Origin: an uncultured Erysipelotrichaceae bacterium
GTDB taxonomy: Bacteria; Bacillota_I; Bacilli_A; Erysipelotrichales; Erysipelotrichaceae
Direction of reading: 5' to 3'
DNA: 38,616 nucleotides
Assembly (NCBI GenBank): GCA_947167125.1
Contig: CAMVGT010000022.1
Location: 1 to 38,616, forward strand
The notes under the pieces: generated by a model
What the model was told of the DNA's origin: nothing
Database searches by the model: none
Seen by the model: only the letters and a program-made list of their open reading frames with translations
Position numbers and translations under genes: made by a program
Part shown: positions 622 to 27,029 of the stretch, in pieces
Position numbering within the stretch: the first letter of the stretch is position 1
Layout: the number at the start of each line of letters is the position of its first letter

Positions 622-2841
622 TTACTGGCGGATCAGATGAATCTGGAATGATTCATATTCGCCCGGTGTCGGATTCCACGGAATTCCGGGAAGCTTGATT
701 CTCGGCATCGGCAGTCCGATTGTCATCAGTGCGCTTGCCGCATAGACATTTCCGCTTTCCTCATCCTTGTAGAAGGCTTCGGGATCGAGTCCTGCACAGC
801 GGACAAAGCGGTTGGGACCGTTGCCGGTCGCATCGAGTGTCACGATGTTGAGCAATGCCTCGCTCTGATCTTCCGCAACCATCATCCAGGCTGCTTCCTT
901 CCGGTTTCTGATCACATCCGTCAGACGGTAGTAAAGGCCGTTATGAAGCAGATTCCAGTATTTTTTGAATGTTTCGATCTGCTTCGGAACTTCCTCCATC
1001 TCTTCTTCCGTAATCAGATTGAGATCCAGTTCATAGCCGAATGTGCCTGCCATCGCCACCACAGCGCGGGTGTTGATCGGCGTTCTGCGGCGTGTGTCGC
1101 CGTTGGGAACAGCCGAAACATGGGCGCCCATGGTGCGGCATGGATAGCAGAAGCTGGTACCGTACTGAATGCGGATTCTGTCGATTGCGTCGGTGTTGTC
1201 AGAGCACCAGATCTGCGGGCAGTAGTACAGCATGCCGGCATCGAAGCGTCCGCCGCCGCCTGCGCATCCTTCCAGAAGAAGATCCGGGTAGCGTTCCAGC
1301 AGTCTTTCCATAAAGCTGTAGACACCGAGCATATAGTCATAGAGGATCTTTCCCCTGCTCTGTGTGCCTGCGGTTCTTGAATATACATCCGCGATCGGGC
1401 GGTTGAAATCCATTTTGACATAGTCAGCGCGGCAGTCATCCAGCACTGCTGAAATCTGGGAGAAGATGTTATCCACAACTTCTTTTCTTGAGAAATCCAG
1501 CACCAGCTGGTTTCTGCCAAGAATCGGCTCCTTGCCCGGAATTGTGAGCGCCCAGTCCGGATGTTCACGGTAGAGATCGGAATCTTCATTGACCATTTCC
1601 GGCTCAATCCATAAGCCGAATTTCATACCCATCGCCCGGATCTTATCTGCAAGTTCCCCCATTGTGCATCCGAGTTTTTCCGTATTCACCTTCCAGTCGC
1701 CAAGACCCGCGTTATCGGTATCTCTTGCCCCGAACCATCCGTCATCCAGCACCATCATCTCAACGCCGAGTTCGGATGCCTTGCGGGCAATGGAAAGAAT
1801 CTTTTCACCGTCAAATGTCATGCCGGTCGCTTCCCAGTTGTTGATCAGAACCGGTCTTCTGCGGTTTTTCCACGGTCCTCTGCAGATGTGTTCACTGATC
1901 ATCTTATGGAAACAGTGGCTCATCTTCGCAAAGCCTTCCGCGCTGTAAACCATCGCGGCTTCCGGGGCCTGGAATGTTTCTGCAGGATTCAGCGGATAAT
2001 TGAACAGTTCCGGCTGCAGACCCATAACGGCTCTTGTCGTTCCGAAAGCATCGCGGCTGATATTTGCAGAGAAGCCGCCGGAATAGACAAAGCACATGCC
2101 GACACACTGTCCCTTGTTTTCATCAGCGCCGTTTTCAGCGATGACGATAAACGGATTTTCATGATGGGAACTCATTCCCCTGCGGGTGCCGATCACGATT
2201 TCGCGCTCCGCGATTTCCACTCTTGCGGCAGCGCGTTCATTGGCATGGCGGCCATAGAAATGCATCAGCTCCCATTCGCCGCTGACAAAATCCAGGCAGG
2301 CGCTTGCGGTCTGGTTCAGAACAACCGGTACATTGCCTTCATTTGTGATCTGCACGGCTCTTGTGATGACATCGATTTCAGGCAGTACGCCGTACTGCAG
2401 AACAACTTTGATTCCGGCATCGCGGTCGCGCAGTGTGACGAGAAGCGTTTCCGCTTCCTCTTCATCCGCGTAAACTGCCGGCAGTCCTTTCAGGCTGTAT
2501 TTGCCTTTGACCACCTCATAGCCTTCATAGCGCAGATCGCATCCGGAGGCACCGTTTGCCCGGCTCACGGAGAATGCCGAAGCTCTGAAATCGCCGCTTC
2601 CTTCGCATGGATATTCCAGCGGAAGCGTATCCGAGGAAACCGTGCGGTTGAATTTGGAATCATACGGATTGACCGAAAAGCCTCTGTCGCGGTAGCTGAG
2701 CGCATAGCCGGCATCCCCGTTCATATGCGGGCCGTAGTAGGTGTGAACCAGAAGCCCGTTATGGACGGCTTTCATCTGATAAGTTGTATTTTTTGTATGG
2801 ATCGAAATGATCGATTCGGATTCATTGATTACGATAGACAT
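622..2841 (-). CDS. Alpha-galactosidase, glycoside hydrolase family 36
   Basis: A 739-residue cytoplasmic enzyme expected to release terminal alpha-1,6-linked galactose from raffinose-type oligosaccharides or melibiose. It has the GH36 order: N-terminal beta-sandwich (about 1-325), TIM barrel (about 330-650) and C-terminal beta domain. The nucleophile is Asp478 in KMDFNR and the acid/base is Asp548 in CSDNTDAIDR. LDDGWF (365-370), and the Trp in NNWEA, which shapes the -1 subsite in characterised homologues, are also present. Length is normal and no signal peptide is seen. The gene follows the DUF624 gene by 2 bases (TAATTATG) and is the last gene of the transporter cluster, so it probably acts on sugar imported by the ABC system. 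Exact substrate is inferred. Confidence 0.95.
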   Translation of the reverse strand: MSIVINESESIISIHTKNTTYQMKAVHNGLLVHTYYGPHMNGDAGYALSYRDRGFSVNPYDSKFNRTVSSDTLPLEYPCEGSGDFRASAFSVSRANGASGCDLRYEGYEVVKGKYSLKGLPAVYADEEEAETLLVTLRDRDAGIKVVLQYGVLPEIDVITRAVQITNEGNVPVVLNQTASACLDFVSGEWELMHFYGRHANERAAARVEIAEREIVIGTRRGMSSHHENPFIVIAENGADENKGQCVGMCFVYSGGFSANISRDAFGTTRAVMGLQPELFNYPLNPAETFQAPEAAMVYSAEGFAKMSHCFHKMISEHICRGPWKNRRRPVLINNWEATGMTFDGEKILSIARKASELGVEMMVLDDGWFGARDTDNAGLGDWKVNTEKLGCTMGELADKIRAMGMKFGLWIEPEMVNEDSDLYREHPDWALTIPGKEPILGRNQLVLDFSRKEVVDNIFSQISAVLDDCRADYVKMDFNRPIADVYSRTAGTQSRGKILYDYMLGVYSFMERLLERYPDLLLEGCAGGGGRFDAGMLYYCPQIWCSDNTDAIDRIRIQYGTSFCYPCRTMGAHVSAVPNGDTRRRTPINTRAVVAMAGTFGYELDLNLITEEEMEEVPKQIETFKKYWNLLHNGLYYRLTDVIRNRKEAAWMMVAEDQSEALLNIVTLDATGNGPNRFVRCAGLDPEAFYKDEESGNVYAASALMTIGLPMPRIKLPGIPWNPTPGEYESFQIHLIRQ

Positions 2842-2843
2842 AA

Positions 2844-3623
2844 TTATTCACCCTGCGCGGAGGCCTTCTTTCTGTTTTCTTTCAGTGTTTGTTCGATTTG
2901 GAATACTTCATCGAGGATGGGATAGATCATCTGGAATATCACAAGCAGCACCAGCCAGAATCCGCATACCAGAAGCAGGAATACGGATGCCGGAAACAGC
3001 CTGATCAGAAGCGCGGTATAAGCCGCGAAAAGCACAATGCAGACAAAGGATTTTCCAAAATAGCGGAAGCACAGCAGAATGCTGTTTTTGATCAGTGCGC
3101 CAAAGCTCAGCTGAAGCAGCACCGTCTGCGGCAGAGCCCATAAGAAGATGCCGAGACACACCGCGACGCTGACTGCTTCGCAGATCAGAAGCCCGAGGCC
3201 GCCAAGCTGCGGCAGATGCAGGATAATAAAGATCGGCAGCGCGAATACCATGCCGAATACGGCACCGGGAAGAAGCGTGCTCACCCAGTTGTTTCTGAGT
3301 GCGCGCATGTAGCGGTGAATGCCGTACGCAGGCTCATCCCTGAGACCTCTTAAGATCACATCCGCCAGTCCATAGAAGAACGGGGCCGCAATCAGTCCGC
3401 CGATCACACCTGCAAGCAATGCGAACAGGATGGAATGCAGTGCGACCGCGTAGCCGCACATAAACAGAAACGGCAGGAATGTAATCACATTGATCAGTCC
3501 CGCCAGCATCAGCGGATTGTAATCACGTGAGAGAACTTCCAGGATGCGTTTGATTCCGGTTTCCCGGGGAAGCTCTTCTTCAAATTCGCTTTCGTAGCTG
3601 CTGTAATCATCATGCAACGGCAT
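2844..3623 (-). CDS. DUF624 (YesL-like) membrane protein
   Basis: A 259-residue polytopic protein with an acidic cytosolic N-terminus (SYESEFEEE) and about five hydrophobic segments. It matches the DUF624/YesL family, commonly encoded beside LplB/LplC-type sugar permeases and glycosidases in Firmicutes. Its biochemical role is unknown; the context suggests an accessory role in uptake of the operon's sugar. The start is the ATG at 3623, with AGGAA 6 bases ahead; a GTG two codons upstream is also in frame but worse placed. It is nearly joined to the GH36 gene. A long hairpin separates it from the permease genes upstream. Confidence 0.8.
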   Translation of the reverse strand: MPLHDDYSSYESEFEEELPRETGIKRILEVLSRDYNPLMLAGLINVITFLPFLFMCGYAVALHSILFALLAGVIGGLIAAPFFYGLADVILRGLRDEPAYGIHRYMRALRNNWVSTLLPGAVFGMVFALPIFIILHLPQLGGLGLLICEAVSVAVCLGIFLWALPQTVLLQLSFGALIKNSILLCFRYFGKSFVCIVLFAAYTALLIRLFPASVFLLLVCGFWLVLLVIFQMIYPILDEVFQIEQTLKENRKKASAQGE

Positions 3624-3656
3624 AGGCACTTCCTTTCTCTTTCATTATAAAACAGA

Positions 3657-3701
3657 ATCCTCTTCTTTCCCTCCCTGCCGCAGGGAGGGAAAAAAGAGGA
3701 T
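3657..3701 (-). terminator. Long intercistronic hairpin after the permease genes
   Basis: A stem of about 20 bp with a 3-base loop (core CCCTCCCTG/CAGGGAGGG, extended by AGAGGAT/ATCCTCT after one small mismatch) lies between the second permease gene and the DUF624 gene. On the minus strand it is followed by TCTGTTTTATAAT rather than a clean T-run. It may be a partial terminator or an mRNA-stabilising structure that lowers expression of the distal genes. A TATAAT at 3644-3649 could serve a secondary promoter, but I see no good -35 box. Confidence 0.6.
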
Positions 3702-3709
3702 AATGAGAG

Positions 3710-4594
3710 TTATCCCTTCACGCTTCCCAGGGTAAGGCCCTTGGTAAAGTAGCGCTGCAGGAACGGATATACCATCATGATCGGCAGAGCGCCGAGGAAC
3801 AGCTGCGCAGCACGGCCGGTACGGGCATTCATCTTGGAAAGAATATCCTGGATATTGCCGGTTGTATCGGACTGCAGAAGCTTTTCGAAGTCGACGAGGA
3901 GGGTCTGCAGATAAGTCTGAAGCGGATAGTTCATCGGATCGCTCATGTAGATCATACCGGCGAACCAGTCGTTCCAATGGCCGACCATTGAGAACAGACC
4001 GACAGTTGCCAGAGACGGGCCGAGCAGCGGGAAGATAACACTCCAGAGGGTTCTGAAAGGAGATGCACCGTCAATCCAGGCTGCTTCTTCGAGTTCATGA
4101 GGAAGTCCGCGGATGAAGTTCATGAGGATGATCATGTTGTAAACCGGCAGAGCGCCCGGCAGGATCAGAGCCCAGATGGTGTCTTTGAGTCCAAGACCGG
4201 AAACTAACAGGTAAGTCGGGATCATACCGCCGCCGATGAGCATTGTCAGTACGAAGAATCCGGAGAGGATTCCGCGGAAAGGCAGGTCTTCTTTTGCCAG
4301 CGGATAAGCTGTCAGAACCATGAGAACGATGTTCAGCAGTGTTCCGAGAATAACACGTTCAATGGAGATGCCCATTGCGTGCAGGAAACGGCCGCCGGTA
4401 ATGACATATTCATAGGAAGCTGCAGTAAATTCAACCGGCCAGAAGCCGACTCTTCCGGCTGCGACTGCAGATGAGGATGAGAATGAAACTGCAAGCAGAT
4501 GAATGAAAGGCAGGACGCAGGTAATGCAGATGATGCCAAGACCGATTGTCAGAATTACATCAAATACGGATACACCCTTTTTCTTCTTTTCCAT
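3710..4594 (-). CDS. Carbohydrate ABC transporter permease (LplC/YtcP type)
   Basis: A 294-residue inner-membrane subunit with six predicted membrane segments. The ABC permease (EAA) loop that docks the ATPase is clear: EEAAWIDGASPFRTLW, near residues 170-185. It belongs to the CUT1 LplC/YtcP group used for oligosaccharides. The C-terminal TLGSVKG tail is typical of this group. It follows the partner permease by 12 bases and starts at an ATG with AGGTG upstream. It should form a heterodimer with that partner and work with the lipoprotein binding protein. No ATP-binding subunit is encoded nearby. Confidence 0.92.
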   Translation of the reverse strand: MEKKKKGVSVFDVILTIGLGIICITCVLPFIHLLAVSFSSSSAVAAGRVGFWPVEFTAASYEYVITGGRFLHAMGISIERVILGTLLNIVLMVLTAYPLAKEDLPFRGILSGFFVLTMLIGGGMIPTYLLVSGLGLKDTIWALILPGALPVYNMIILMNFIRGLPHELEEAAWIDGASPFRTLWSVIFPLLGPSLATVGLFSMVGHWNDWFAGMIYMSDPMNYPLQTYLQTLLVDFEKLLQSDTTGNIQDILSKMNARTGRAAQLFLGALPIMMVYPFLQRYFTKGLTLGSVKG

Positions 4595-4606
4595 ACTTAC
4601 ACCTCA

Positions 4607-5506
4607 TTACAGAATTCTGTATCCGGCGAGCTTGTCTGCCAGTCTGTAGGAGACAACAACCAGAATCGCGGATACGAGTGATTTGAACAGGCCGACCGCC
4701 GCACCGACGGAATACTGAGCCTGCTGAATACCTAAACGGTAAACATATGTATCAATGACGTCACCGGTCTCCCATACAGCCGGGCTGTACAGGTTGTAGA
4801 TCTGGTCGAAGCCCGCATTGAGCACGCTTCCCAGAGAAAGGACTGTCATCAGGATGATGGTAGGCATCAGCAGCGGAATCGTAACGTTCTTGATCTGCTG
4901 CCAGCGGGTAGCGCCGTCCAGCATTGCGGATTCGTAAAGGGCCGGATCGATACCGGTCAGCGCTGCAAGGTAGACGATGGTTCCGTAACCGAAGCCCTTC
5001 CAGACATCGGAGATAATCATTGTCCACGGGAATATTTTCGCATTTCCGAGGAAGTCCACGCTATGGAAGCCAAGCTTCATGAGAATAACGTTGATCGCAC
5101 CTGTGCTTGCCAGGATATCCATGAGAACACCGGCCATGATAATCCATGACAGGAAGTTCGGGATATAAATCAGTGTCTGATAGAATCTCTTGAGTTTTTC
5201 TGATCTCATTTCGTTGAGGAGAATCGCGATCGTAACCGGAACAACAACACCGAGAGCGAGTTTCCAGACAGAGATAAACAATGTATTGGTGATCGTTCTT
5301 GTGAATGTAGGCTGGCTGAACAGATAGCGGAAGTTCTCCATGCCGACCCACGGTGAGCTGAAACCTAAACCGACATTGTATTTCTCAAAGGCGATGATAA
5401 CGCCGTAGAGGGGAATATAACTGAAGATGAAAGTGACAATCACACCCGGGATCAACATGAGATAATACTGCCAGTAGCTTGCTATACCCTTTTTTTTCTT
5501 ATTCAT
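4607..5506 (-). CDS. Carbohydrate ABC transporter permease (LplB/YteP type)
   Basis: A 299-residue permease that begins MNKKKKGIASYW. It has six membrane segments and the EAA loop ESAMLDGATRWQQIK near residues 195-210. It is of the LplB/YteP type and is the expected partner of the LplC-type permease downstream. The reading frame runs further upstream, but ATG 5506 is chosen because AAGGAG lies 6-7 bases before it and the added residues are not family-like. A strong hairpin lies between this gene and the upstream binding-protein gene. Confidence 0.92.
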   Translation of the reverse strand: MNKKKKGIASYWQYYLMLIPGVIVTFIFSYIPLYGVIIAFEKYNVGLGFSSPWVGMENFRYLFSQPTFTRTITNTLFISVWKLALGVVVPVTIAILLNEMRSEKLKRFYQTLIYIPNFLSWIIMAGVLMDILASTGAINVILMKLGFHSVDFLGNAKIFPWTMIISDVWKGFGYGTIVYLAALTGIDPALYESAMLDGATRWQQIKNVTIPLLMPTIILMTVLSLGSVLNAGFDQIYNLYSPAVWETGDVIDTYVYRLGIQQAQYSVGAAVGLFKSLVSAILVVVSYRLADKLAGYRIL

Positions 5507-5527
5507 ATTCGCTCCTTGTTTCGGAAA

Positions 5528-5566
5528 ACGCGGTACGGTTCGGACATTTCTCAAACCGTACCGCGT
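5528..5566 (-). terminator. Hairpin between binding-protein and permease genes (partial terminator)
   Basis: A perfect 13-bp stem (5528-5540 with 5554-5566) with a 13-nt loop and a short TTTT on the minus strand lies in the 71-base gap. Such structures in ABC operons often let only part of transcription continue into the membrane subunits, or protect the upstream mRNA, giving excess binding protein. The role here is inferred. Confidence 0.75.
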
Positions 5567-5577
5567 CATTAACAGCA

Positions 5578-7212
5578 TTAGTCGCCGTAGATTTCGTTGA
5601 TTTCTTCTGTTGCCTTCGCACCGCCGGCAGTCTTCCACTGCTCAACGAGTTCATCGAAGTAGTCGATCGGCTTTTCACCGATGATAATCTTTGTGAATCC
5701 TTCAACCAGGATGTCTTTGAGAGTGCTGCCGGCAGCCTGGAGAGTCGGTGTATCCGGTCCCCACTTAGCGTCCTGAACATACTGCTTTTCATCGACATAT
5801 TTCTTAGCGATACCGTAAGCGGAGCGGTCATTGCCCTGCTGCAGGAAGTCGCCTACGCCATTGGGATCCTGAGATGTGACCCAGTTGACACAGCTTTCAT
5901 ACTTGGAGAGGTTTGTGCCGAGGGCGCTTGTGTCGACGTCTTCACCTGCCTGATATCTGTCAAATGCATCTTTGACCTGGATGTACTGGTTGTAGTCGTT
6001 CATCGGGTTGATAATACGTGTGCCGCGTACGCAGTTCGGATAGTTGAAGCTGTGCAGAGAGGACAGATATTCATTGGTTTCTTTGCCTACTGCATCATTG
6101 ACTGTATAAACATAGAAGTTGACGATCTTCATGATTGCTTCAGGGTTCGGGCAGTCTTTTCTGATGACAACATATCCGTTGTTGTTGAATGTAACGCTGC
6201 CCTTGATCGGGGAGCCGTCCTGTGTCGGAATTTCATACGGATAGAAGATTGCGTCTGCTCCCTGGTTCTTGATCAGGTCAGGCAGCGGGTTGTAGCCGAA
6301 CCACTGAGCGAACGGAATAACACCGCATTCGCCGTTGATCATGCCCTGCATCATCTTGTCCCAGTTCAGAGTTGTGAAGTTCGGGTTGATGATTCCTTCT
6401 TTGTACCATTCAGCATACTGTGCAAGAGCTTCTTTCATTTCCGGCTGGATTGTGCCGTATTCGATTGTACCGTCATCCTTCTTGACCCAGATATCCGGAT
6501 GAGCACCCCAGCTCAGAGCGAGTCTGAACAGATTTTCAAGAGTCTGGCATTCCGGCAGAGCATATCCGCCGTACTTTTCAGCGAATGTTGTGGCGATCTT
6601 GATGACGTCATCCATTGTCTTGGGTTCTTCAAAACCGCATTCTTTCATCCAGTCCTGACGGATCCAGATGTACTGGAACTGGTCGATGATACCATAGGAC
6701 ATCTGCGGCATGCCGTAGAGATGGCCGTCAAATTCACCGGTTTCCCATGTATCCGCATAGTCTTTGCGGTAGCCCTTGAGAACATCGGAAGCATAGCTGT
6801 CGAATACTTCGTCCAGGTTCATGATGAGACCTGCTTCATACAGTGTTGTCAGACGTGCAGAGTCAACATAGAACACGTCAGCGATATCTTTATCAGCGAT
6901 CGCCAGATTCAGCTTTGTTCCATAGTCATTGGAAATCCACTTATTGACGAGATTGATGTTAAAGCGTTCTTTATAAGCGCGGTACCAGGGGTTGTTGCCG
7001 TAGTCATCATCGCCCTGGAACTCAGTTCCGCTGTTTTCTTCACCCATTGTGGTTACTGTAACAGTTTCTTCATACGGTGCCCAGATGTCTGCGGGCGGTT
7101 CGACTCTTGCGGATTCATTGCCGCCTGTCGGGGATGCTGGTTTGGACATGCAGCCAGTCAGGCATGCGGCTGACAGAAGCAGCGCTGCGCCTTTGCGGAA
7201 ATTCTTGTGCAT
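5578..7212 (-). CDS. Extracellular solute-binding lipoprotein (LipO/YtcQ type)
   Basis: A 544-residue sugar-binding protein of the large family 1 type that pairs with LplB/LplC permeases. The signal peptide (MHKNFRKGAALLLSAACLTGC) ends in an LTGC lipobox, so Cys21 should be lipidated and the protein anchored on the outer face of the membrane. The mature part has the family's aromatic-rich stretches such as EFDGHLYGMPQ and AQWFGYNP. The start is ATG 7212, preceded by GAGGAG; an in-frame extension upstream is rejected because it would bury the signal peptide. It is the first gene of the transporter operon, divergent from the AraC regulator, with a cre-like box upstream. Confidence 0.93.
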   Translation of the reverse strand: MHKNFRKGAALLLSAACLTGCMSKPASPTGGNESARVEPPADIWAPYEETVTVTTMGEENSGTEFQGDDDYGNNPWYRAYKERFNINLVNKWISNDYGTKLNLAIADKDIADVFYVDSARLTTLYEAGLIMNLDEVFDSYASDVLKGYRKDYADTWETGEFDGHLYGMPQMSYGIIDQFQYIWIRQDWMKECGFEEPKTMDDVIKIATTFAEKYGGYALPECQTLENLFRLALSWGAHPDIWVKKDDGTIEYGTIQPEMKEALAQYAEWYKEGIINPNFTTLNWDKMMQGMINGECGVIPFAQWFGYNPLPDLIKNQGADAIFYPYEIPTQDGSPIKGSVTFNNNGYVVIRKDCPNPEAIMKIVNFYVYTVNDAVGKETNEYLSSLHSFNYPNCVRGTRIINPMNDYNQYIQVKDAFDRYQAGEDVDTSALGTNLSKYESCVNWVTSQDPNGVGDFLQQGNDRSAYGIAKKYVDEKQYVQDAKWGPDTPTLQAAGSTLKDILVEGFTKIIIGEKPIDYFDELVEQWKTAGGAKATEEINEIYGD

Positions 7213-7361
7213 TTTTCTTTCTCCTCTTTTTTCTGAATTGTAAGAATGCTTGTTCAGTTTTGATAAGCCGGCTGTTTGGCATCCGGAAGGATTCAGCGGG
7301 ATTCCCACGCGTGCACTCACGGGAATTTCCCCTTCCTTTTGTCATTCACAGTTTAGCAATT

Positions 7362-7375
7362 TGTAAGCGATTTCC
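7362..7375 (-). promoter_or_regulatory. cre-like (CcpA) box upstream of the ABC operon
   Basis: TGTAAGCGATTTCC matches the catabolite-responsive element consensus TGNAANCGNWWNCA at all but the last position. It lies about 150 bases upstream of the binding-protein start, in the divergent promoter region. I could not place the -35/-10 boxes of this operon with confidence. Confidence 0.5.
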
Positions 7376-7453
7376 CTATTAGCAGATGTGAGTATTTATA
7401 TCTCATTTCTGCGAATTTCTGTGGATAAATGCAAATTATGTCACAATATGATA

Positions 7454-7459
7454 TATAAT
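7454..7459 (+). promoter_or_regulatory. -10 box of the AraC-family regulator gene
   Basis: A perfect TATAAT lies 44 bases before the start codon. The -35 region is poor, which suits an activator-dependent or weak promoter. Confidence 0.5.
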
Positions 7460-7471
7460 GTATCCAAGCAT

Positions 7472-7485
7472 AGTAAACGCTTACA
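7472..7485 (+). promoter_or_regulatory. cre-like box in the leader of the AraC-family gene
   Basis: AGTAAACGCTTACA matches the cre consensus except at its first base and has strong dyad symmetry (GTAA..TTAC). It starts 12 bases after the -10 box and ends just before the ribosome binding site, where bound CcpA could block transcription. A LacI-family operator would look similar. Confidence 0.5.
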
Positions 7486-7502
7486 TAATGGAGGAGAAAA
7501 GG

Positions 7503-8378
7503 ATGGCTGTTAAAGATATAGAATTCCGGAAAGACGGTCCGAAATATAAATTCCACGTCGCACGAGACGAGCTTTTCATCGATCTGAACCTTTATCAGTT
7601 CGGCTATGAAAAGTGTTCACCGATGCATTCCTACGGTCCTGCCCGCAGAAATCATTTTCTGTTCCATTACATCCTCCGCGGCAAAGGAACGCTGGACACC
7701 AGCGGCAATACATGGCATCTCGGACCCGGACAGGGGTTTCTTCTGTGCCCGGAACAGATTTCAAGCTATCAGGCTGATTTCGATGATCCCTGGTTCTATG
7801 TATGGGTCGAGTTTGACGGACTCAAAGCACGTGAATGCATGACCCTTGCCGGGCTCAGCGAACAGCAGCCGGTCTATACAAGCATTTCACCGCAGAACAA
7901 TTCGATCGCAGATCATATGCTGGCAATTGTCGACGGTGCCGATCACTCTTTTATCCGTCTGGTCGGACTGGGTATGCTGCTGATGGATGAAATCATGGAA
8001 ACATCCAAGACAAAAGTAGTGATGGAAAGAAGAAAGATGCGCGATTTCTATATGAAGGAAGCACTCAACTTCATTGAAAGCAATTATCAGAGGGATATTT
8101 CCGTTGAAGAGATCGCTGACCGCAGCGGCCTCAACCGCAGCTATTTCAGCCGTCTTTTCAAGGAGACATTCGGCCAGTCACCGCAGCAGTTTCTGATCAC
8201 CTACCGGATGAACAAAGCTTCCGAACTGCTGAAAAACACAAAAATGCCGATTCATGAAGTCGGAAAACAGGTCGGCTATGAAAATCAGCTTCATTTCTCG
8301 AGAGCCTTTAAAAATACATTAGATATGTCGCCCCGCGAATACCGCGACCGGAATATGGTTCATCCGGTTTCCCAGTGA
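7503..8378 (+). CDS. AraC-family transcriptional regulator
   Basis: A 291-residue regulator. Residues 1-150 form a cupin-like sugar-sensing domain (HYILRGKGTLDTSG, then GPGQGFLLCPEQI). The last ~100 residues hold the two AraC helix-turn-helix motifs, with ISVEEIADRSGLNRSYFSRLFKE and the family end motif IHEVGKQVGYENQLHFSRAFKNTLDMSPREYR. The start is ATG 7503, 7 bases after GGAGGAG; upstream in-frame codons lie in the leader. It is divergent from the alpha-galactoside-type ABC operon and precedes an MFS transporter, so it is probably the local activator of these genes. The inducer is not visible from sequence. Confidence 0.93.
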   Translation: MAVKDIEFRKDGPKYKFHVARDELFIDLNLYQFGYEKCSPMHSYGPARRNHFLFHYILRGKGTLDTSGNTWHLGPGQGFLLCPEQISSYQADFDDPWFYVWVEFDGLKARECMTLAGLSEQQPVYTSISPQNNSIADHMLAIVDGADHSFIRLVGLGMLLMDEIMETSKTKVVMERRKMRDFYMKEALNFIESNYQRDISVEEIADRSGLNRSYFSRLFKETFGQSPQQFLITYRMNKASELLKNTKMPIHEVGKQVGYENQLHFSRAFKNTLDMSPREYRDRNMVHPVSQ

Positions 8379-18599: not shown

Positions 18600-19829
18600 T
18601 CAGTTGTATTCTTCGACGATATTCTCGATATACTGCTGCCAGAATGTTCCTGCGGCATACTTTTTCCAGAGATTTCTGCCTTCTGCATTCTCCAGTTTAT
18701 GGATTTCCGGCTCATCACCGGTGAAATAGGCTGTATTCATGGCTGAAGCATATTTCACCATCTCTGCCTGTTCGGCTTCATCGGCTCCGGTGTCCTTCAC
18801 CGTCTGCTCAGTCATCCGCAGAACCGTTTCAATAAAGCGGTCATCCGCTTCCTGCTCAAACAGATCCAGCTTTGCACGTTCATAATCAAAACTCTTTCTG
18901 TCCGCGCGGATCTTAATCATACCATACTGAAGCGGATAAAGCGCAATGGATTCTGAACAGATGTCGGTCAGTCCGTCGGAAACAGCTGTATGCTGAAGAT
19001 GCGAGTGGCCTGACAAAGCCAGGAAAACGCCGTATTTCTTCAGCAGAGCTGAGACTTCTTCATAATTGGAAATGACATAGCCCTGATACATCATTGTCGA
19101 CTGGATCAGCACATTCTGATGGGACATTGCAACAACAGTGATCCCCTTTTCCTGTGCTTCTTTTAAAACCGTCTCCATCCAGGCGATGGTTTCTTCCGGA
19201 ATGCGGCAGTAATTCTCCACTGTATTTGCGTCAAGCGTCAGGATCCAGAAATCATCGGTTACCGGATAGACATAGGCAAGTGTTTTTTCATCCCTGTACA
19301 GTGCTTCTTCATAGCCGAACTGTCCCATCACCTCCGCAAACTGTTCAGAAGAAATCCGGTCCACAGGTTCAGGATCCGATCCGAAATAGCGCATTGCATA
19401 GCGGTATGAAATATCATGGTTGCCGGGAATCACAAGAACCTGGATGCCTGCAGCCTCCACTTCCTCCATCGCTTTTTTCACTTCCAGAAGCGAAACCATT
19501 TCGCCATTGAATGTCAGATCACCTGTAAGCAGAAGCGCGTCAGGATGGACCGCAATCGCCTCTTCCTTAAGAGCTTCAAGGATCTCGGTGCTCTTTTCAA
19601 ACAGCTTGCCGTCATTGGTCTCCATCAGGGTATGGAATATCGGCGAATTTTCATCATAAAGCTCTTTGGCAAGATGATGCAGATCGGTTGTCACCATCAG
19701 ACTGACTTCTTCCCTGTCCATTTCTTCCTCCTGGATATTTTCACTGCACGCACTGCAGAAACAGATCATGCAGCAAATTAACAATTTCAAAAGCACATTT
19801 CTTTTTCTGATTCTGTTCATCCGGTTCAT
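18600..19829 (-). CDS. Calcineurin-like metallophosphoesterase lipoprotein
   Basis: A 409-residue exported phosphoesterase. The N-terminus has a basic stretch, a hydrophobic core and a lipobox ending FCSAC. The metallophosphoesterase motifs occur in order: DLHH, GDLT, GNHD, SHQN and GHSH, which hold the two metal ions. The target is unknown; cyclic nucleotides and other phosphoesters are possible. The C-terminal ~100 residues are helical and charged. The start is uncertain: 19829 gives a normal signal peptide but has no clear ribosome site, 19820 is nearby, and 19877 has GGTGG but would put about 30 residues before the hydrophobic core. Confidence 0.85.
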   Translation of the reverse strand: MNRMNRIRKRNVLLKLLICCMICFCSACSENIQEEEMDREEVSLMVTTDLHHLAKELYDENSPIFHTLMETNDGKLFEKSTEILEALKEEAIAVHPDALLLTGDLTFNGEMVSLLEVKKAMEEVEAAGIQVLVIPGNHDISYRYAMRYFGSDPEPVDRISSEQFAEVMGQFGYEEALYRDEKTLAYVYPVTDDFWILTLDANTVENYCRIPEETIAWMETVLKEAQEKGITVVAMSHQNVLIQSTMMYQGYVISNYEEVSALLKKYGVFLALSGHSHLQHTAVSDGLTDICSESIALYPLQYGMIKIRADRKSFDYERAKLDLFEQEADDRFIETVLRMTEQTVKDTGADEAEQAEMVKYASAMNTAYFTGDEPEIHKLENAEGRNLWKKYAAGTFWQQYIENIVEEYN

Positions 19830-19915
19830 TATAAGCTGAAATGACGGATTCTTCTTTTCATCCGCTCTTTTTTTCATCCCACCGTTCAAAACGCAATCAG
19901 GCTCAAATCAAAACA

Positions 19916-19965: not shown

Positions 19966-20997
19966 TTATTTCAGATCCTTTACGCCTGTTTCCAGCATTT
20001 CAATCTGGATCAGTGTCTGTTCCGGTGTCACCAGCTGGGGCTTTCCTGCGATGACTGTCTGATACAGGGCGTCATAGTAATAACCGTAATCTCCTTTGAC
20101 ACTCTGCACCTTTTCTTCGTGATACTGCTTTTCATCATCGTAATAAATCAGAGTGCCGTAGTCTTCCGGCGTGTCCAGGCCGAAGTCGGGATGTCCTTCA
20201 GGAAGATAGAATTTCTTGAGATCTGCTTCCTGTCTGTCCTTGGCATATTTTTCAAACATGCCTTTTTTGCCGTAGATCACAAATGACGGTCTGCTCTTGA
20301 CACGGAAGTAGGAAGATTTGACGGAAACCTTGAAGATTCCGTAATAGAGATCAAGATCGAAATAATCATTCATTCTTCCTTCGCCAAGCAGCTGCCTTAC
20401 ATCATAATGGACATGATCCGGTTTGCCGAAATAAGAAATCACCTGATCCAGTGTATGGCACCCATGGCCATAGAGATAGGAAAATGCAGGATGGAATTCT
20501 TTCACCGATTCCGGGATTTCCGGACGGTAATAATCAAAATGCATTTCCAGTTCCAGAAGATCGCCGAGCTTTCCGCTTTCAATGACTTTCTGAACGGTCA
20601 GGAAATCACTGTCAAACCGTCTGTTCTGATAGCACTGCAGCATCAGTCCCTTTTCCTTTGCCAGCGCAAAGACTTCTTCCGCCTGTTCCTTTGTTTCGGT
20701 AAACGGCTTTTCGCATACACAGTTTTTGCCGGCGTTCAGAACCTTTTTGATGTAATCATAATGAAGATGATGAGGAAGCGTGATCACAACCACATCAATC
20801 TCAGGATCATTCAGAAGCTCATCCAGATTGTCCGTATAATGAACGCCTTCAATTCTTGCCCAGTCTGTTTTATTCAGATTTCTTGCCCAGATTGTCTTGA
20901 TCTGCATCGTGTCTCTTCTGGTCAGCACAAACGGTGCATGATATCTGTTTGTGCTTTTTCCGTTTCCGATATAGCCGATCTGCATTTTTCTATCCAT
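19966..20997 (-). CDS. Gfo/Idh/MocA-family oxidoreductase
   Basis: A 343-residue NAD(P)-dependent oxidoreductase, probably acting on a sugar or sugar-like polyol. The N-terminal Rossmann fold starts IGYIGNGKSTNRYHAPF, the form seen in YhhX/YdgJ-like members, and CEKPFTET holds the catalytic-loop Lys of the EKP motif. Length is typical. It overlaps the end of the EIIB-ROK gene by 8 bases, and its ribosome site (GGGAGGAAAAG) lies inside that gene, so the two are translated together and probably work on one pathway. Substrate is not visible. Confidence 0.9.
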   Translation of the reverse strand: MDRKMQIGYIGNGKSTNRYHAPFVLTRRDTMQIKTIWARNLNKTDWARIEGVHYTDNLDELLNDPEIDVVVITLPHHLHYDYIKKVLNAGKNCVCEKPFTETKEQAEEVFALAKEKGLMLQCYQNRRFDSDFLTVQKVIESGKLGDLLELEMHFDYYRPEIPESVKEFHPAFSYLYGHGCHTLDQVISYFGKPDHVHYDVRQLLGEGRMNDYFDLDLYYGIFKVSVKSSYFRVKSRPSFVIYGKKGMFEKYAKDRQEADLKKFYLPEGHPDFGLDTPEDYGTLIYYDDEKQYHEEKVQSVKGDYGYYYDALYQTVIAGKPQLVTPEQTLIQIEMLETGVKDLK

Positions 20998-22423
20998 TTT
21001 CTTTTCCTCCCTGCTTTTTCATCAGCTTCTTTGTATCCTTCTTCAGTGAATGCATGCCGTACAGCATTGTTCCGAGAAGTGCATATTCGGTAATATCCCT
21101 GACATGAATCAGATCAGGAATATATTTTTCATCGATGTATTTTTTCAGTTCTTCTTTCAGTTCATCCATATCCGGCGTCAGGGCACTGCGGACCAGAATC
21201 ACTTCCGGCGCAATTTCCGCAATACACATCAGAAGATAGAATATCACTGCCTCTTTGATTTCTTCTGCTGTTCCGCTGTCCTTTTTCTCACTTCTTTCCG
21301 GCCAGTGATGAAAGAAAACAGGTTCCAGTTCACCGCCCATCTGCTTTCTGCCGTCCAGCGGAATCCCCCGGTAAACACTTCCGGTTCCGCCGATCAGCGA
21401 TCCCGTCACCTGGCTGTGATAGCAGACAATATCGTATTTTTCCTGCTGGGCATAATAGCCATAGGCGACAGCAGCGGTATTGTGATGCACATAAACCGGA
21501 AGTTCATAGCGTTCACTGAGCTGTGAAGAAAGATTTTCATAATCCACCCGCTCCCTTTCATTTCCATAGTTCACAATACCCGGCAGCGAAATTGCACAGG
21601 CATCGACATGGAAATTCTTCCGGATTGCGCGAAGTGCCGTATCCAGGATGTCATAAATATCCTGAATGCTGTCCTGTTCCTTGATGACTTCTTCTGTCAG
21701 AAGAACATTGCCGGCTTCATACAGTCTTTGCACATAGCGGGTTGAATTGAGATCGTGCGTCATGTTCACCGCAAACAGAACGGCATTGGTGTCGATGTCG
21801 CGCATGACTTTGGCAATTGCGGTCTGTTCCCTTGTCTTCTTCTGTTTTGCGCGCTCTTCATGAATCAGAGCTATGACTTTTCCGGCATCATAGGAAGCGA
21901 AAACGGAAGCGGGTATGGTGATGACAAGCTGGTCCGTAAAGACTTCCTTCACCTTTTTCAGCTGCCAGGCGATCTGCGGCGCCAGCAGAATGACATCGGC
22001 ATTGAAGCCGGCATTGTGAATGGAAGAAAATGCGACAGCACTGTACTCATGATCAAGCGAAAGCGTTTTTGCGGCTTCATTCAGCTTTTCCGCAAAGAAG
22101 CCGGTTGTCATACCGCTGGTGCAGCTAAGCAGAACATGAAGCGTGCAGCGGCTTTCGCGCTTCTTCAATGTGTCGATCATCTCACGGTAAAGACCATGCG
22201 CATGATCTTCTTCCTTCAGTTCGAAATGAAGGAAGAAAAAGTTTTCGTGCGTTGCGCGGTCGCTTAAGCGCATTTCCACAACATCCGTTTCCTGGTGATA
22301 GACCAGAACTTCCCCTTCCGATTTTTCCGAACGGATGACGATCTGATCATCATTTTCCTGCGTCACTGAAAAGCCGTTGTGTGGCTGCGAAGCGATCCAT
22401 CCGATATATTCTCTGCTGTTCAT
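20990..22423 (-). CDS. PTS EIIB-like domain fused to a degenerate ROK-like domain
   Basis: A 477-residue protein with an unusual architecture. Residues 1-90 are an unrecognised beta-rich domain. Residues 93-193 match a lactose/cellobiose-type EIIB, with phosphosite-like Cys101 in SCTSGMTTGFFAEKLNEA. Residues 211-470 resemble a ROK (sugar kinase/NagC) fold: SLPGIVN (279-285), VYVHHNTAAVAYG (310-322) and SLIGGTGSVYRGIPLDG (342-358). The catalytic Asp of the ROK N-D-A motif is Thr315, the N-terminal D-x-GGT phosphate loop is missing and so is the Cys-rich zinc motif, so sugar kinase activity is unlikely. No HTH is seen. It could be a PTS-linked sugar sensor (inference). The gene overlaps the downstream oxidoreductase gene by 8 bases. 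A TATAAT lies at 22444-22449. Confidence 0.75.
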   Translation of the reverse strand: MNSREYIGWIASQPHNGFSVTQENDDQIVIRSEKSEGEVLVYHQETDVVEMRLSDRATHENFFFLHFELKEEDHAHGLYREMIDTLKKRESRCTLHVLLSCTSGMTTGFFAEKLNEAAKTLSLDHEYSAVAFSSIHNAGFNADVILLAPQIAWQLKKVKEVFTDQLVITIPASVFASYDAGKVIALIHEERAKQKKTREQTAIAKVMRDIDTNAVLFAVNMTHDLNSTRYVQRLYEAGNVLLTEEVIKEQDSIQDIYDILDTALRAIRKNFHVDACAISLPGIVNYGNERERVDYENLSSQLSERYELPVYVHHNTAAVAYGYYAQQEKYDIVCYHSQVTGSLIGGTGSVYRGIPLDGRKQMGGELEPVFFHHWPERSEKKDSGTAEEIKEAVIFYLLMCIAEIAPEVILVRSALTPDMDELKEELKKYIDEKYIPDLIHVRDITEYALLGTMLYGMHSLKKDTKKLMKKQGGKENG

Positions 22424-22548: not shown

Positions 22549-22866
22549 ATGGCAAATAATAAGAAACCGGTATCGCAGATGAGCGAACAGGAACTGCTTG
22601 CCGAGCTGGTTGAAAAAAGCAGAAAAACGCATATTCTGCAGATGATTCTCAGTATCGCCGCATTCGTGGCAGTTATTTCCGTTATCGTCGGCATGACAAT
22701 CGTTGTGCCGAAACTCCTGGGTTCCCTGGAGGCTCTGGATACTCTGTCAAAAACAGGAACAGAAGAACTGGGCGAGCTGTCCAAGATTGATTTTGACGCG
22801 CTGAATGAAGGCATTGCGGATTTCAACGCGATTGTATCTTCACTTGCCAAATGGTTCGGCAGATAA
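22549..22866 (+). CDS. Small single-pass membrane protein, hypothetical
   Basis: A 105-residue protein with a charged N-terminus (QMSEQELLAELVEKSRKTH), one long hydrophobic helix (about 31-57) and a helical outer part (about 58-105). I do not recognise the family. The shape, one helix followed by an amphipathic helical segment, resembles small accessory or stalk proteins, but no function is claimed. AGAGG precedes the ATG, and a TACAAT -10-like box lies about 30 bases upstream. It is transcribed alone, against its neighbours. Confidence 0.7.
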   Translation: MANNKKPVSQMSEQELLAELVEKSRKTHILQMILSIAAFVAVISVIVGMTIVVPKLLGSLEALDTLSKTGTEELGELSKIDFDALNEGIADFNAIVSSLAKWFGR

Positions 22867-22942: not shown

Positions 22943-23830
22943 TTACTTATAATCAAATCCGCTCGGTTCGCACAGAGGCTTTTCCAGCAGGTCGGGATTT
23001 TCAAAGATATGACGGATCAGTTTCAGGCTTCTTGCGAAATAGAAACCGTCGCCGATTCTTTCATCCAGAGTCGCGCCGATATCGATCACATCACGTATTT
23101 CCTTATGGCCGTCTTCCATCAGGATCTCCTCTTTATGAAGCGTTCCGATGGTCACCATGATGGAGTTTGTTCCGTAGTTGTTCAGATGGTGATAGACAGC
23201 AGGTGCCTTGATGGAGCCGAGGTTTGCCACAAGAATGGTGGAATAGTTCGGATCTCCCGCTGTGATGAAATCGGGATTCTTTCCCCAGAAATCAAGATAG
23301 CGGATCAGGCGTACGCTTCCTGCAAGCAGAGGTCTTGGCAGAGCTGCGAATTTATCAAGCAGTTCATCGACGCCTCCGGTTGCGTGATCGCTTTTTCTTG
23401 CCTCAGCGACATCGCCGATGATCTTCTTTGAAATCTCATTGACGGTATCGGTTTCCGCCGGCACCAGGAACATCAGTGTTTCTTCCGCATTGTCGGCGAA
23501 TCTTCTTTTTGCGACAAAGGAAAGAGAAATCTCATTGCGTTCATAGATGCGGTAGCCCTGAATGAAGCGGTTCATCAGAGGCCTCTCCTTTACCATTCTT
23601 GCAAGCGCGGTAATTGCGCAATGGAAAATGGTAACCTTGTCTTCCGTTCTGCCTTCATTCTTTTCGGCCAGATATTTCATCAGGTTGGTCGCATCAATCT
23701 TGTCGTTGAGATATACTTCGGCTTCTGTCCGTTTCGGCATCAAGGCCGTCATGACAGTCTGCAGACCGGGTGCTTTTACTCTGTGCCCGTCTTTTCTGTC
23801 GCCCCAGGCAACTCTCTTCGCGTTTTTCAT
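22943..23830 (-). CDS. 2-oxoacid dehydrogenase E2-like (CAT-fold) acyltransferase, stand-alone
   Basis: A 295-residue protein like the catalytic domain of E2 acyltransferases, without lipoyl or E1/E3-binding domains. The core matches the CAT fold: LNDKIDATNLMKYL near the start and ILVANLGSIKAPAVYHHL, then the region where E2 enzymes have the active-site D-H-R-x-x-D-G. Here it reads DERIGDG (256-262), with Glu257 in place of the catalytic His. Such lone E2-like proteins occur beside acyl-CoA ligases; whether they are active is unknown to me. It lies 69 bases after the acyl-CoA synthetase gene on the same strand, so a joint role with acyl-CoA is plausible. Confidence 0.8.
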   Translation of the reverse strand: MKNAKRVAWGDRKDGHRVKAPGLQTVMTALMPKRTEAEVYLNDKIDATNLMKYLAEKNEGRTEDKVTIFHCAITALARMVKERPLMNRFIQGYRIYERNEISLSFVAKRRFADNAEETLMFLVPAETDTVNEISKKIIGDVAEARKSDHATGGVDELLDKFAALPRPLLAGSVRLIRYLDFWGKNPDFITAGDPNYSTILVANLGSIKAPAVYHHLNNYGTNSIMVTIGTLHKEEILMEDGHKEIRDVIDIGATLDERIGDGFYFARSLKLIRHIFENPDLLEKPLCEPSGFDYK

Positions 23831-23899: not shown

Positions 23900-25585
23900 T
23901 TACTGCGGATTTTCCTGTTCCTCCAGAACATGGTAGGCAACCTTGCCGACCAGGGTTCTGGGCAGATCATCGCGGAATTCGATTTCCTTCGGCAGTGCAT
24001 AGGCTGCGACTGACTTTTTCAGACGGTCCATGATTTCCTGTTTCTTGGCGTCTGTTTTTTCAACACCGTCTTCAAGAACGACATAGGCCTTGACCTTCTG
24101 GCCGCGTCTTGTGTCTTTGATTCCAAGAACACAGGAAAGCAGCACGCCGTCGACTCTGTCGATTTCATTTTCCAGGATTTCCGGATAGACGTTATAGCCG
24201 TTGGTAATGATCATTCTCTTCATTCTGCGGGCAAAATAGACATATCCGTCTTCATCCATATAACCGGAGTCACCGGTATACAGCCATGTATCGCCATCGC
24301 TTCTCTTACGGAGCGTTTTGGCTGTTTCCTCTTCGTTATGCAGGTAGCCGAGCATGAGTGTCGGACCTTTGAGAACAATTTCGCCCTCTTCGCCGACCGG
24401 CAGACTTTCATCGGTTCCAGGTCTCACAATGTCATAAACCGTATCCGGGAAAGCAACACCGATCGAACGCTCACGGTAGTTATCCCTCGGTGTCAGACAC
24501 GAAGCGGTAACGCATTCGGTCAGACCGTATCCTTCACGGATCTGGATATTGGCATGATGTTCATGCAGGAAGTCATCGACTTTGCGCTTGAGTTCCACCG
24601 GCAGTGAATCGCCGCCGCAGAACATGCCCATTAAGAAGGAAAGATCAGCACCTTCAAGATCTTCGGCGTGCAGAAGCGCTTCGAAGATGGTCGGAACGCC
24701 GGCAATGAAGTTCGGCTTCTTTTCCTTGAGCATCTTTGCGTATGTCTTGATGTTGAAGGAAGGCATCAGAATACTCTTGACGCCATAGATCAGAATCGTA
24801 TGGATGTTGATGCCAAGACCGAAGCCATGGAACATCGGCATGCATGACAGCATGCTGAGACCGGGACGGAATTCCATCTCAATTGATTCCCTCGCCTGCA
24901 TTGCGCATGCGTTGAAGTTCAGATCGCTCAGGCAGACGCCCTTGGGCTTGCCGGTTGTGCCGCCGCTGTAGAGAATAACAGCGGTTCTGGTTTTATCGAA
25001 CTTCGCTTCCGGAAGCTTGACGGCATGATTCTGTTCCAGATATTTCTGCCAGACAATATCTCCCTTGTAAGGATATTTGAGATATTTGCGTCCTTCCTTG
25101 AGAATGTACGGCAGCTTCAGCATACCGGGCAGCTGGTCCTGCATTCGGGCACAGAGAATCGTTACCTCATGATCAACCTCCTTGAGAGACTCATGTACCT
25201 TTTCGTAGAACATGTCCGGGACAAGAATATACTTACTGCCTGAAACATTCAGGTAATATGTGATTTCCTCCTGGGCGGAAAGCGGATGGATCATATTGGC
25301 AATTGCGCCGATGCGGCTGATTGCGTAAAAAGCATCCACTGTCTGGGGCAGATTCGGCATACAGATCGTCACCGGATCCCCCTGTTTTACGCCGAGTGCT
25401 GTCAGTGCTGAAGCAGCCCGGTTTATATTGCGCAGAAACTGTGCGTATTTCGTTTCCTTGCCATAGAATTCATAGGCAGGTTCATTCGGATATTTTGAAG
25501 CGATTCTGGCAATCATCTGATACATCGTCAGTTCAGGATAGTCCAGATGTCTTCTCACTCCGTTCTTATAATCATATGTGTCCAT
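23900..25585 (-). CDS. AMP-forming acyl-CoA synthetase (long-chain type)
   Basis: A 561-residue ANL-superfamily ligase that should activate a carboxylic acid to acyl-AMP and then acyl-CoA. The phosphate-binding loop LYSGGTTGKPKGV is near residues 205-217, followed by the substrate-site motif YGLTECV, the adenylate Asp in YTGDSGYMDEDG, the RRMKRMI hinge and the C-terminal PRTLVGK with the catalytic Lys. Length is typical of FadD-like enzymes, but chain length cannot be read. It precedes the E2-like acyltransferase gene. The ribosome site is weak (GGATAG). Confidence 0.9.
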   Translation of the reverse strand: MDTYDYKNGVRRHLDYPELTMYQMIARIASKYPNEPAYEFYGKETKYAQFLRNINRAASALTALGVKQGDPVTICMPNLPQTVDAFYAISRIGAIANMIHPLSAQEEITYYLNVSGSKYILVPDMFYEKVHESLKEVDHEVTILCARMQDQLPGMLKLPYILKEGRKYLKYPYKGDIVWQKYLEQNHAVKLPEAKFDKTRTAVILYSGGTTGKPKGVCLSDLNFNACAMQARESIEMEFRPGLSMLSCMPMFHGFGLGINIHTILIYGVKSILMPSFNIKTYAKMLKEKKPNFIAGVPTIFEALLHAEDLEGADLSFLMGMFCGGDSLPVELKRKVDDFLHEHHANIQIREGYGLTECVTASCLTPRDNYRERSIGVAFPDTVYDIVRPGTDESLPVGEEGEIVLKGPTLMLGYLHNEEETAKTLRKRSDGDTWLYTGDSGYMDEDGYVYFARRMKRMIITNGYNVYPEILENEIDRVDGVLLSCVLGIKDTRRGQKVKAYVVLEDGVEKTDAKKQEIMDRLKKSVAAYALPKEIEFRDDLPRTLVGKVAYHVLEEQENPQ

Positions 25586-25691: not shown

Positions 25692-27029
25692 TCAGATATT
25701 CAGCCTTGTGACTTTTTCACCGGCAACCGCGTCGGTGGTGCCGTCTTCGGAAATGACGATCGCCACAAAGTTCTGTCCGAGTTCTTTTCTTCTGCGTATG
25801 TAATTGAGGGATGAATTGAAACGCGCGCCTCTTGCGATGGTTCCTTTTGCGGCATCTCCGTCAAGGATTGCGCCGATGCAGACGCAGGAACATCTGGTGT
25901 CCATCAGCACTGCACCGTCAATTGAAACAAAGGACGGCAGCATATCCTTATGATGATCCAGGGAAATCGGTGAAATGCCGATGCCGACTTTCGCCTGGGT
26001 CAGACGTTCGCATTCGGACTGGATGTCATCGGTTTTTCCGATGATCAGAATCGTTCCGTATTTCTGCGAAGCAGCGTCCATAATCACATTCGCGATCCGG
26101 GAAACTTCCACCGGGGAAAGCGTCGGATCGACGGATTTCATCAGATCGCTGACATCAAGATCCGCCTTGCGGCTGACATTGATATGATAGCGGGCATTGT
26201 GATAGGAAATCTTCTGTCCGGCATCATAGGCAATCCGCCAGGAAAGATGTCCCTTGATTTTGACTTCGCATTCATTCGGGAAGGCATGCTTGTCAGAAAG
26301 GCCTCTGATTTTTCCGGTCTCATCCACAACCAGCGCCAGTGCGTCATTGGACAGTTCGAGCAGCTTGCGGATCTGTCTGTGGCTTTCCGGCGCAAAGGCA
26401 ATCGGTTCGCTGAAGGCAACCTTCAGTCCCTGCTTCAGTGTTCTTCTGTTTGTGCGGGAACCGATGCGGGGAATGATGATCCGGCTGTCGGCATATTTGC
26501 GTTCATACGTTTCTGCGGAAAGGTTCTGCAGGAAGTTGATATCCAGACGGTAAAGACCGTAGAAGAATTCCAGGATGCCGCCGGAAATGATCAGGTCATA
26601 CATATGGGAGATGCTGACGCGGCGGATGCCGTAGAAATAGATCTGCTTATAGACTTCTTCAAAGAAGGATCTTGTCACAAACTGCAGCGGCGAAATACCC
26701 CCGCCGCAGTAATCGAAGATGACAAAGATATTGTCCTGATACCATGTGTAGGAATTTTCAAAATTCTCAATCTCGGTCACATCATGAACAATATGCTCTG
26801 TGATATCGCGGTTTTTTCTCGTGATTGTCGCGATCCTGTAGCCGCTTTCCAGTCCCTCCTCCTCGCTTTTCTGCTCAAGGGAAAAGTGAATGCGGAAATC
26901 GGGAATATCCCGGGGATTGTCGTAGAGATGTTTCAGAAGGGATGTATACAGTTCTCTGATCCGCAGAAAGACATCTTCCAGTTCCGCGGATTCGTCCTGG
27001 GCAAGACTGATCCAATAATTATTTTCCAT
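25692..27029 (-). CDS. DAC (DisA_N, diadenylate cyclase-like) domain protein
   Basis: A 445-residue protein whose C-terminal third looks like a diadenylate cyclase domain: SIDGAVLMD with the DGA motif at 371-373, then ARGARFNSSLNYI with GARFN at 401-405, where classical enzymes have the RHR motif. In DAC enzymes these two motifs bind ATP to make cyclic di-AMP. The RFN variant makes the activity uncertain. The N-terminal ~330 residues have no clear motif; a DACNV/DACNH-type sensor module is possible (inference). No membrane segment is seen, unlike CdaA. The neighbour on the same strand, 71 bases upstream, is a membrane protease. A TATAAT lies at 27061-27066. Confidence 0.7.
   Translation of the reverse strand: MENNYWISLAQDESAELEDVFLRIRELYTSLLKHLYDNPRDIPDFRIHFSLEQKSEEEGLESGYRIATITRKNRDITEHIVHDVTEIENFENSYTWYQDNIFVIFDYCGGGISPLQFVTRSFFEEVYKQIYFYGIRRVSISHMYDLIISGGILEFFYGLYRLDINFLQNLSAETYERKYADSRIIIPRIGSRTNRRTLKQGLKVAFSEPIAFAPESHRQIRKLLELSNDALALVVDETGKIRGLSDKHAFPNECEVKIKGHLSWRIAYDAGQKISYHNARYHINVSRKADLDVSDLMKSVDPTLSPVEVSRIANVIMDAASQKYGTILIIGKTDDIQSECERLTQAKVGIGISPISLDHHKDMLPSFVSIDGAVLMDTRCSCVCIGAILDGDAAKGTIARGARFNSSLNYIRRRKELGQNFVAIVISEDGTTDAVAGEKVTRLNI

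Follow-up and report, generated by a model that had tools for sequence, protein, structure and literature searches.

An EIIB–ROK fusion protein of an Erysipelotrichaceae bacterium, probably a soluble signalling protein of PTS sugar flux

What is the role of a soluble protein in which an EIIB domain of the phosphotransferase system (PTS) is joined to a ROK fold that lacks both the ATP P-loop and the zinc motif? The question is raised by a gene in a stretch of 38,616 nucleotides from an uncultured Erysipelotrichaceae bacterium, called the window here. An earlier note on this DNA had described a fusion of an EIIB and a ROK-like domain at 20990..22423, and our analysis bears this out. The gene, on the minus strand like all its parts and the oxidoreductase gene beside it, encodes 477 residues; it is supported by its open reading frame and translation, by Pfam, by a predicted structure with a pLDDT of 91.4 and by homologues, including five further full-length copies in the same genome (six with that of the window, all candidates having been scored). 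Three domains are predicted. The N-terminal domain, residues 1-92 (22148..22423), is formed of a helix, five strands and a helix. It is followed by an EIIB domain of the lactose/cellobiose (Lac/Cel) type, residues 94-198 (21830..22144), by a linker, residues 199-211 (21791..21829), with pLDDT below 50 at residues 199-205, and by a ROK-fold domain, residues 212-470 (21014..21790). The linker lies where, in the split relatives described below, one gene ends and the next begins.

Both fold and motif support the EIIB assignment, with a PF02302 match of 37.8 bits against a curated cut-off of 23.6. In the predicted structure Cys101 closes the strand formed by residues 95-101 and thus stands at the loop after strand 1, the phospho-acceptor loop C101-T-S-G-M-T-T107 (22103..22123). 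In column counts Cys101, Pro149, Gln150 and Pro171 are each present in 105/105 fusions, a set gathered before the sequences of a sister family were added, and T106 is invariant in an alignment of 92 rows. The earlier note had staked its reading on the conservation of this Cys, which is complete in these fusions. Judged by the alignments, conservation is stricter on the EIIB side of the protein than on the ROK side. The N-terminal domain has no Foldseek match at E ≤ 0.001 and no Pfam family of its own in the Pfam copy searched, and it appears to resemble TriTu-like immunity proteins in fold only. In a sample of 344 genomes across the phylum it was found in 18, all from the same order, and always in open frames of at least 198 residues, lengths compatible with a junction to an EIIB domain. 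No PRD domain is listed for the window protein in a Pfam scan at E ≤ 1.

A structure comparison places the C-terminal part of the protein in the ROK fold (PF00480), as the earlier note had proposed, and the losses that it reported there, of a helix-turn-helix (HTH), of the D-x-GGT loop and of the zinc motif, were all found. No HTH family is scored by Pfam and no such element is seen in the predicted structure. The P-loop position is occupied by residues 215-223, FAVNMTHDL (21755..21781, from the translation), and the pattern D-x-GG-T/S occurs in 0/134 fusions, that of the window included, and in two of the three ROK kinases used as a check. These 134 sequences comprise 104 fusions from the taxonomic family of the window and 30 from the sister family, one with masked residues having been left out. 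The motif E-x-G-H is likewise absent from all 134. As for the Cys-rich zinc motif, the window protein has no Cys at residues 366-399, and the pattern C-x-C-x(3-5)-C, counted at any position, was matched in 2/134 fusions, both in open frames of more than 580 residues. Other landmarks of the ROK sugar kinases are retained, with the PG, GG and E columns conserved; Glu365, in the G363-G-E365 sequence (21329..21337) that takes the position of the ROK 'AGE' motif, is kept in 119/134 fusions.

The catalytic Asp requires separate treatment. Its position in the window protein is taken by N315, within H314-N-T-A317 (21473..21484), so that the loss reported by the earlier note is real in this protein. 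It does not extend to the family: most relatives have N-D-x-N here, the Asp being kept in 87/134 fusions and lacking in 47/134, which rules out its absence as a family-defining trait. H314-N315 is found in 12 of the 13 members of the window's clade (at least 48% identity to the window protein), and HNTA is therefore a mark of this clade. The Asp is also found in 14/14 relatives in which the ROK domain carries an HTH (HTH-ROK proteins, three paired with an EIIB gene and 11 solo); as these are not expected to be kinases, retention of the Asp is no pointer to catalysis.

All fusions in the sampled genomes come from a single bacterial order, in which some gut and rumen bacteria have several copies; the two members with names are a Solobacterium and an uncultured Erysipelotrichaceae assembly. 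Within the taxonomic family of the window 186/272 genomes have a match at E ≤ 0.001, many of these being short EIIB matches, and per-genome copy numbers from the family searches are lower bounds, at most four to five candidates having been scored per genome. In profile searches, 83/294 genomes of the order match at E ≤ 1e-20, and 13/296 genomes of the class and 20/392 of the phylum at E ≤ 1e-30. The only match from outside the order in the class and phylum samples (G336) is to the ROK part alone. As the order, class, phylum and N-terminal domain searches drew on samples of genomes, a broader distribution is possible. Comparison of the two closest pairs gave dN/dS of 0.15-0.17 for the whole gene (0.023/0.144 and 0.141/0.921) and of 0.09-0.21 by domain, with 0.026/0.167 and 0.174/0.879 for ROK alone; in two wider pairs dS was saturated. 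These ratios indicate purifying selection on all three domains. Fusion paralogues broken by stops also occur, in G302 (L198, 6910-7596) and G303 (L199, 6952-8360).

How the fusion arose is suggested by three genomes of the sister family, in which a gene for the N-terminal domain and EIIB is followed by an adjacent ROK gene with an N-terminal extension. The two genes overlap by 1 bp in G272 (L157, 8456-9067 and 7488-8456) and by 4 bp in G275 (L158, 7448-8101 and 6522-7451), and lie 3 bp apart in G302 (L197, 10314-11006 and 9300-10310). The ROK partner in G302 matches NagC at residues 3-236 (54.8 bits, cut-off 650) and Mlc at residues 8-237 (31.3 bits, cut-off 530), far below both cut-offs, and since these matches begin at residues 3 and 8 they include the HTH. 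As HTH_DeoR was scored only weakly (E 0.008) in the partner in G272 and no HTH family by Pfam in that in G275, the presence of an HTH in all three pairs is partly an inference. For L162, a solo relative, the alignment with the ROK repressor Lmo0178 starts at residue 8. The Cys-loop pattern is present in 13 of 14 short proteins made up of the N-terminal domain and EIIB, of which three are paired, nine stand alone and two are the first pieces of broken fusions. A gene of this kind stands next to an ABC-F-like gene (by eye) in both G273 and G302, but in G273 the ROK gene is absent.

Phylogenetic analysis of the two halves of the protein is in agreement with this picture. A tree of ROK domains was built from 83 rows, of which 66 are fusions (36 of the 104 in the window's family, 30 in the sister family). 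A branch with 100/99 support sets all fusions, with one solo sequence on a long branch (L207) among them, apart from the other rows. Intermediate between the fusions and a group (95/83) of solo HTH-ROK proteins and kinases are the paired HTH-ROK proteins (95/66); within that group the three kinases are placed among the solo proteins. A tree of the N-terminal domain and EIIB (77 rows, with 31 and 27 fusions from the two families), for which free EIIBs served as outgroup, unites intact and broken fusions in one clade (96/91); outside this clade lie the paired and solo forms, the paired ones not as one group. Roots were placed at the midpoint, and the branching order is read with kinases or free EIIBs taken as outgroups. 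Both trees fit a single fusion of an adjacent pair of EIIB and HTH-ROK genes, accompanied by loss of the HTH. The fusion family thus appears, from its sequences, to descend from a two-gene pair of sensor and repressor, and for this reason the fusion is probably a sugar-flux signalling protein.

A precedent for such a pair is known. In E. coli the ROK repressor Mlc is sequestered by EIICB-Glc when the latter is dephosphorylated (PMC3901232). There too an EIIB and a ROK protein act as a signalling unit in which the phosphorylation state of the EIIB is the signal, and the ROK partner in the split pair of G302 resembles NagC and Mlc; in E. coli, however, the two are separate proteins, the EIIB is joined to an EIIC and Mlc has an HTH, whereas the window fusion is one soluble chain with a Lac/Cel-type EIIB, an extra N-terminal domain and no HTH. 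The EIIB that binds Mlc is of the Glc type and not of the Lac/Cel type, and the parallel is therefore functional and not homologous. By this analogy the fusion family fits the Mlc/EIICB-Glc logic, transposed from two proteins into one: the pair has apparently first become adjacent, then fused, then multiplied. Other known proteins share single features with the fusion. No ROK fold scored a higher Z than the staphylococcal ROK family protein MecR2 (PDB 4ija), which several kinases equalled; MecR2 is called an antirepressor in the title of a paper, but has no EIIB domain in the PDB match. In PRD regulators, those of the MtlR type having EIIA- and EIIB-like domains, an EIIB-like domain is present within a regulator and shares in phospho-control (PMC6148471), but these proteins carry PRDs where the window fusion has a ROK fold. 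Free chitobiose/cellobiose PTS EIIBs, 103-116 residues long in those solved, lack both the N-terminal domain and ROK, and ROK sugar kinases share the fold and the PG, GG and AGE landmarks but not the absence of the P-loop and E-x-G-H from all the fusions or, in the window's clade, of the Asp.

The earlier note knew of no described system of this kind. For the fusion itself this stands within the openly accessible papers searched for both domains together: no EIIB–ROK fusion turned up among the matches listed, and ROK regulators are mentioned near chb PTS genes without one. For the principle it does not hold, as the sources cited above describe EIIB control of a ROK protein in trans (PMC3901232) and EIIB-like domains within regulators (PMC6148471). 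The window protein and seven relatives tested all stayed below the cut-off of every NCBIfam model.

We consider it somewhat more probable than all other readings together that the fusion is a soluble PTS sugar-flux signalling protein, phosphorylated on Cys101 through a Lac/Cel-type EIIA and with a non-catalytic ROK part, and that it belongs to a paralogous family that arose when genes for an EIIB sensor and a ROK regulator fused and the HTH was lost. Sequence and structure prediction show three domains, a Cys without variation, loss of the P-loop, split gene pairs and purifying selection, together with EIIA-Lac/Cel genes at two places and HPr genes at two places in this genome; phosphorylation, ligand binding and output are inferred, and we propose the following. 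At low sugar flux the EIIA would phosphorylate Cys101, which would lose its phosphate again during import of the cognate sugars. The shape of the protein would depend on whether Cys101 is phosphorylated and possibly also on a sugar or sugar phosphate held in the non-catalytic ROK cleft, the ROK part reading the signal from Cys101 and perhaps a sugar ligand. The output would pass through contact with another protein, most likely an HTH-ROK repressor, which the fusion would bind or pair with as an anti-repressor; action on these repressors is our leading guess, and the N-terminal domain would serve as a second contact surface. As the window's clade has also replaced the catalytic Asp, the window protein itself is probably a pure switch and not an enzyme. 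The phospho-switch sensor of PTS flux suggested by the earlier note would fit and gains a basis in the split pairs. Such a protein would make PTS activity readable in the cytosol without dependence on any membrane transporter, and would offer these gut and rumen bacteria a candidate way to rank sugars. Thanks to the split pairs and the invariant Cys, the signalling reading is open to direct tests.

Candidate targets are found in the gene neighbourhood of some fusions. In G030 and G036 an HTH-ROK gene lies 127 bp downstream of a fusion; only its ROK part is scored by Pfam, and its HTH is deduced from L208, a protein 38% identical to it whose match to NagC starts at residue 7. In a comparison of 70 genomes of the genus, genes of this type are present in 17/32 genomes with a full-length fusion (best E < 1e-50) and in 2/38 without one (Fisher p 7e-6, kinship ignored); a gene was counted if its match began at model position 1 and covered 300 positions or more, and a fragment of 50 positions in G079 was left out. 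The remaining 15 of the 32 fusion-bearing genomes lack the type of HTH-ROK gene searched for, so that such a partner is not obligatory. In five f2 genomes a PHP-domain gene lies directly beside a solo HTH-ROK gene (L162, by Pfam; L165, L167, L203 and L205, by eye), and a PHP-like gene precedes the fusion paralogue in L043.

Against the signalling reading stand the varied neighbours of the fusions, which offer no fixed target among the genes scanned. No family dominates as a conserved operon partner among 123 adjacent same-strand proteins (gap < 150 bp, Pfam), obtained from 136 neighbours of 135 fusions by removal of duplicates and by length (127 left) and then of four doubtful open frames. As raw numbers that imply no enrichment, these include His_Phos_1 (7), AAA_22 (6), Hydrolase_3, AAA, PTS_IIB and STAS (5 each), PHP and Gfo (4 each) and GH1 (3); remarks on neighbourhoods made by eye refer to the loci listed. 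The solo EIIB genes counted here, for example next to the fusions of L042, L177 and L187, would suit a protein that serves as a phosphate sink or adaptor within the PTS, its EIIB feeding or draining EIIC transporters and its ROK part being only a scaffold or dimeriser, as would a gene for the N-terminal domain and EIIB (L202) clustered with EIIC-like and GH4-like genes (by eye). However, of the 25 families most frequent among the neighbours PTS_IIB alone belongs to the PTS, purifying selection acts on the ROK domain, whose PG, GG and E columns are conserved, and in the split form the EIIB is coupled with a regulator-like ROK protein. We give this explanation only a small chance.

A slimmer chance attaches to a soluble PEP-dependent sugar kinase, in which a sugar bound by the ROK cleft would take its phosphate from the EIIB Cys, which would stand in for ATP and for a membrane EIIC alike. 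In its favour are the loss of the P-loop combined with retention of the cleft residues in many fusions, and the invariant Cys; besides the three GH1 neighbours a GH4 gene lies two genes from the fusion of L041. On the other hand, the Asp is missing from the window protein and from roughly a third of the fusions, it persists in HTH-ROK relatives that are not expected to be kinases, and there is no fixed metabolic neighbour. Kinase activity driven by the phosphorylated Cys is unlikely in the window protein itself. That it occurs in the Asp-bearing paralogues, with phosphorylation of cytosolic sugar in the ROK cleft, the Asp-less window clade being a sensor offshoot, strikes us as still less probable than the kinase explanation at large. 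Were these paralogues kinases of this sort, neither ATP nor a membrane EIIC would be needed for sugar phosphorylation driven by the PTS.

We are equally doubtful that the fusion is a partner or modulator of the neighbouring oxidoreductase of the Gfo/Idh/MocA superfamily (19966..20997, by Pfam), whose gene overlaps that of the fusion by 8 bases and whose nearest NCBIfam model is PRK10206 (333.6 bits, cut-off 352). The overlap noted earlier is present and gaps of 18-28 bases separate the two genes in the closest orthologues, but the association is not family-wide: the genes are directly adjacent in 6/13 members of the window's clade, or 6/12 assessable ones, as for L009/L018 the contig ends too early, and at no fusion locus examined beyond this clade. 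As a general function this partnership is ruled out, with the caveat that fusions in two f2 genomes, G276 and G281, have members of this superfamily one gene away (L179 8663-9694, on the other strand, E 3e-159; L179 4916-5905 and L189 8604-9614, E about 1e-14). That the protein is a decaying, functionless relic of a regulator, as the loss of the HTH, the P-loop and, in the window, the Asp and the two broken fusions might suggest, is hardly credible, being already disfavoured by dN/dS well below 1 in all three domains as well as by the six full-length copies in the genome.

Several other genes of the window are of note. On the plus strand, 22549-22866 encodes 105 residues that match no Pfam family convincingly and probably include a membrane segment (by eye); open frames 40-44% identical to it occupy the same place in four other loci. 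The sole Pfam match of 22943-23830 is the catalytic domain of 2-oxoacid dehydrogenase acyltransferases, and an AMP-binding enzyme (23900-25585) adjoins it, each being found in five loci, the window included. The gene at 25692-27029, also in five loci with that of the window, has a DACNH match (E 1.8e-6) and weak DAC matches; its sole NCBIfam match is to the anti-phage model DS2_3 (127.8 bits, far below the cut-off of 630). A metallophosphoesterase with a cyclic nucleotide phosphodiesterase C-terminal domain (18600-19889) has a weak match, at 42.9 bits (E 2.9e-11, cut-off 420), to a model of anti-phage phosphoesterases. An ordinary galactoside uptake locus (622-8378) comprises a GH36 alpha-galactosidase (622-2841), two ABC permeases with a solute-binding protein (3710-7320) and a divergent AraC regulator (7458-8378). 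Outside the window, two different genes of G286 (L172 8444-9358 and L173 6928-8379) share an initial stretch of 26 residues and adjoin copies of a transposase-like open frame (by eye); an insertion seems to have lent both a new start.
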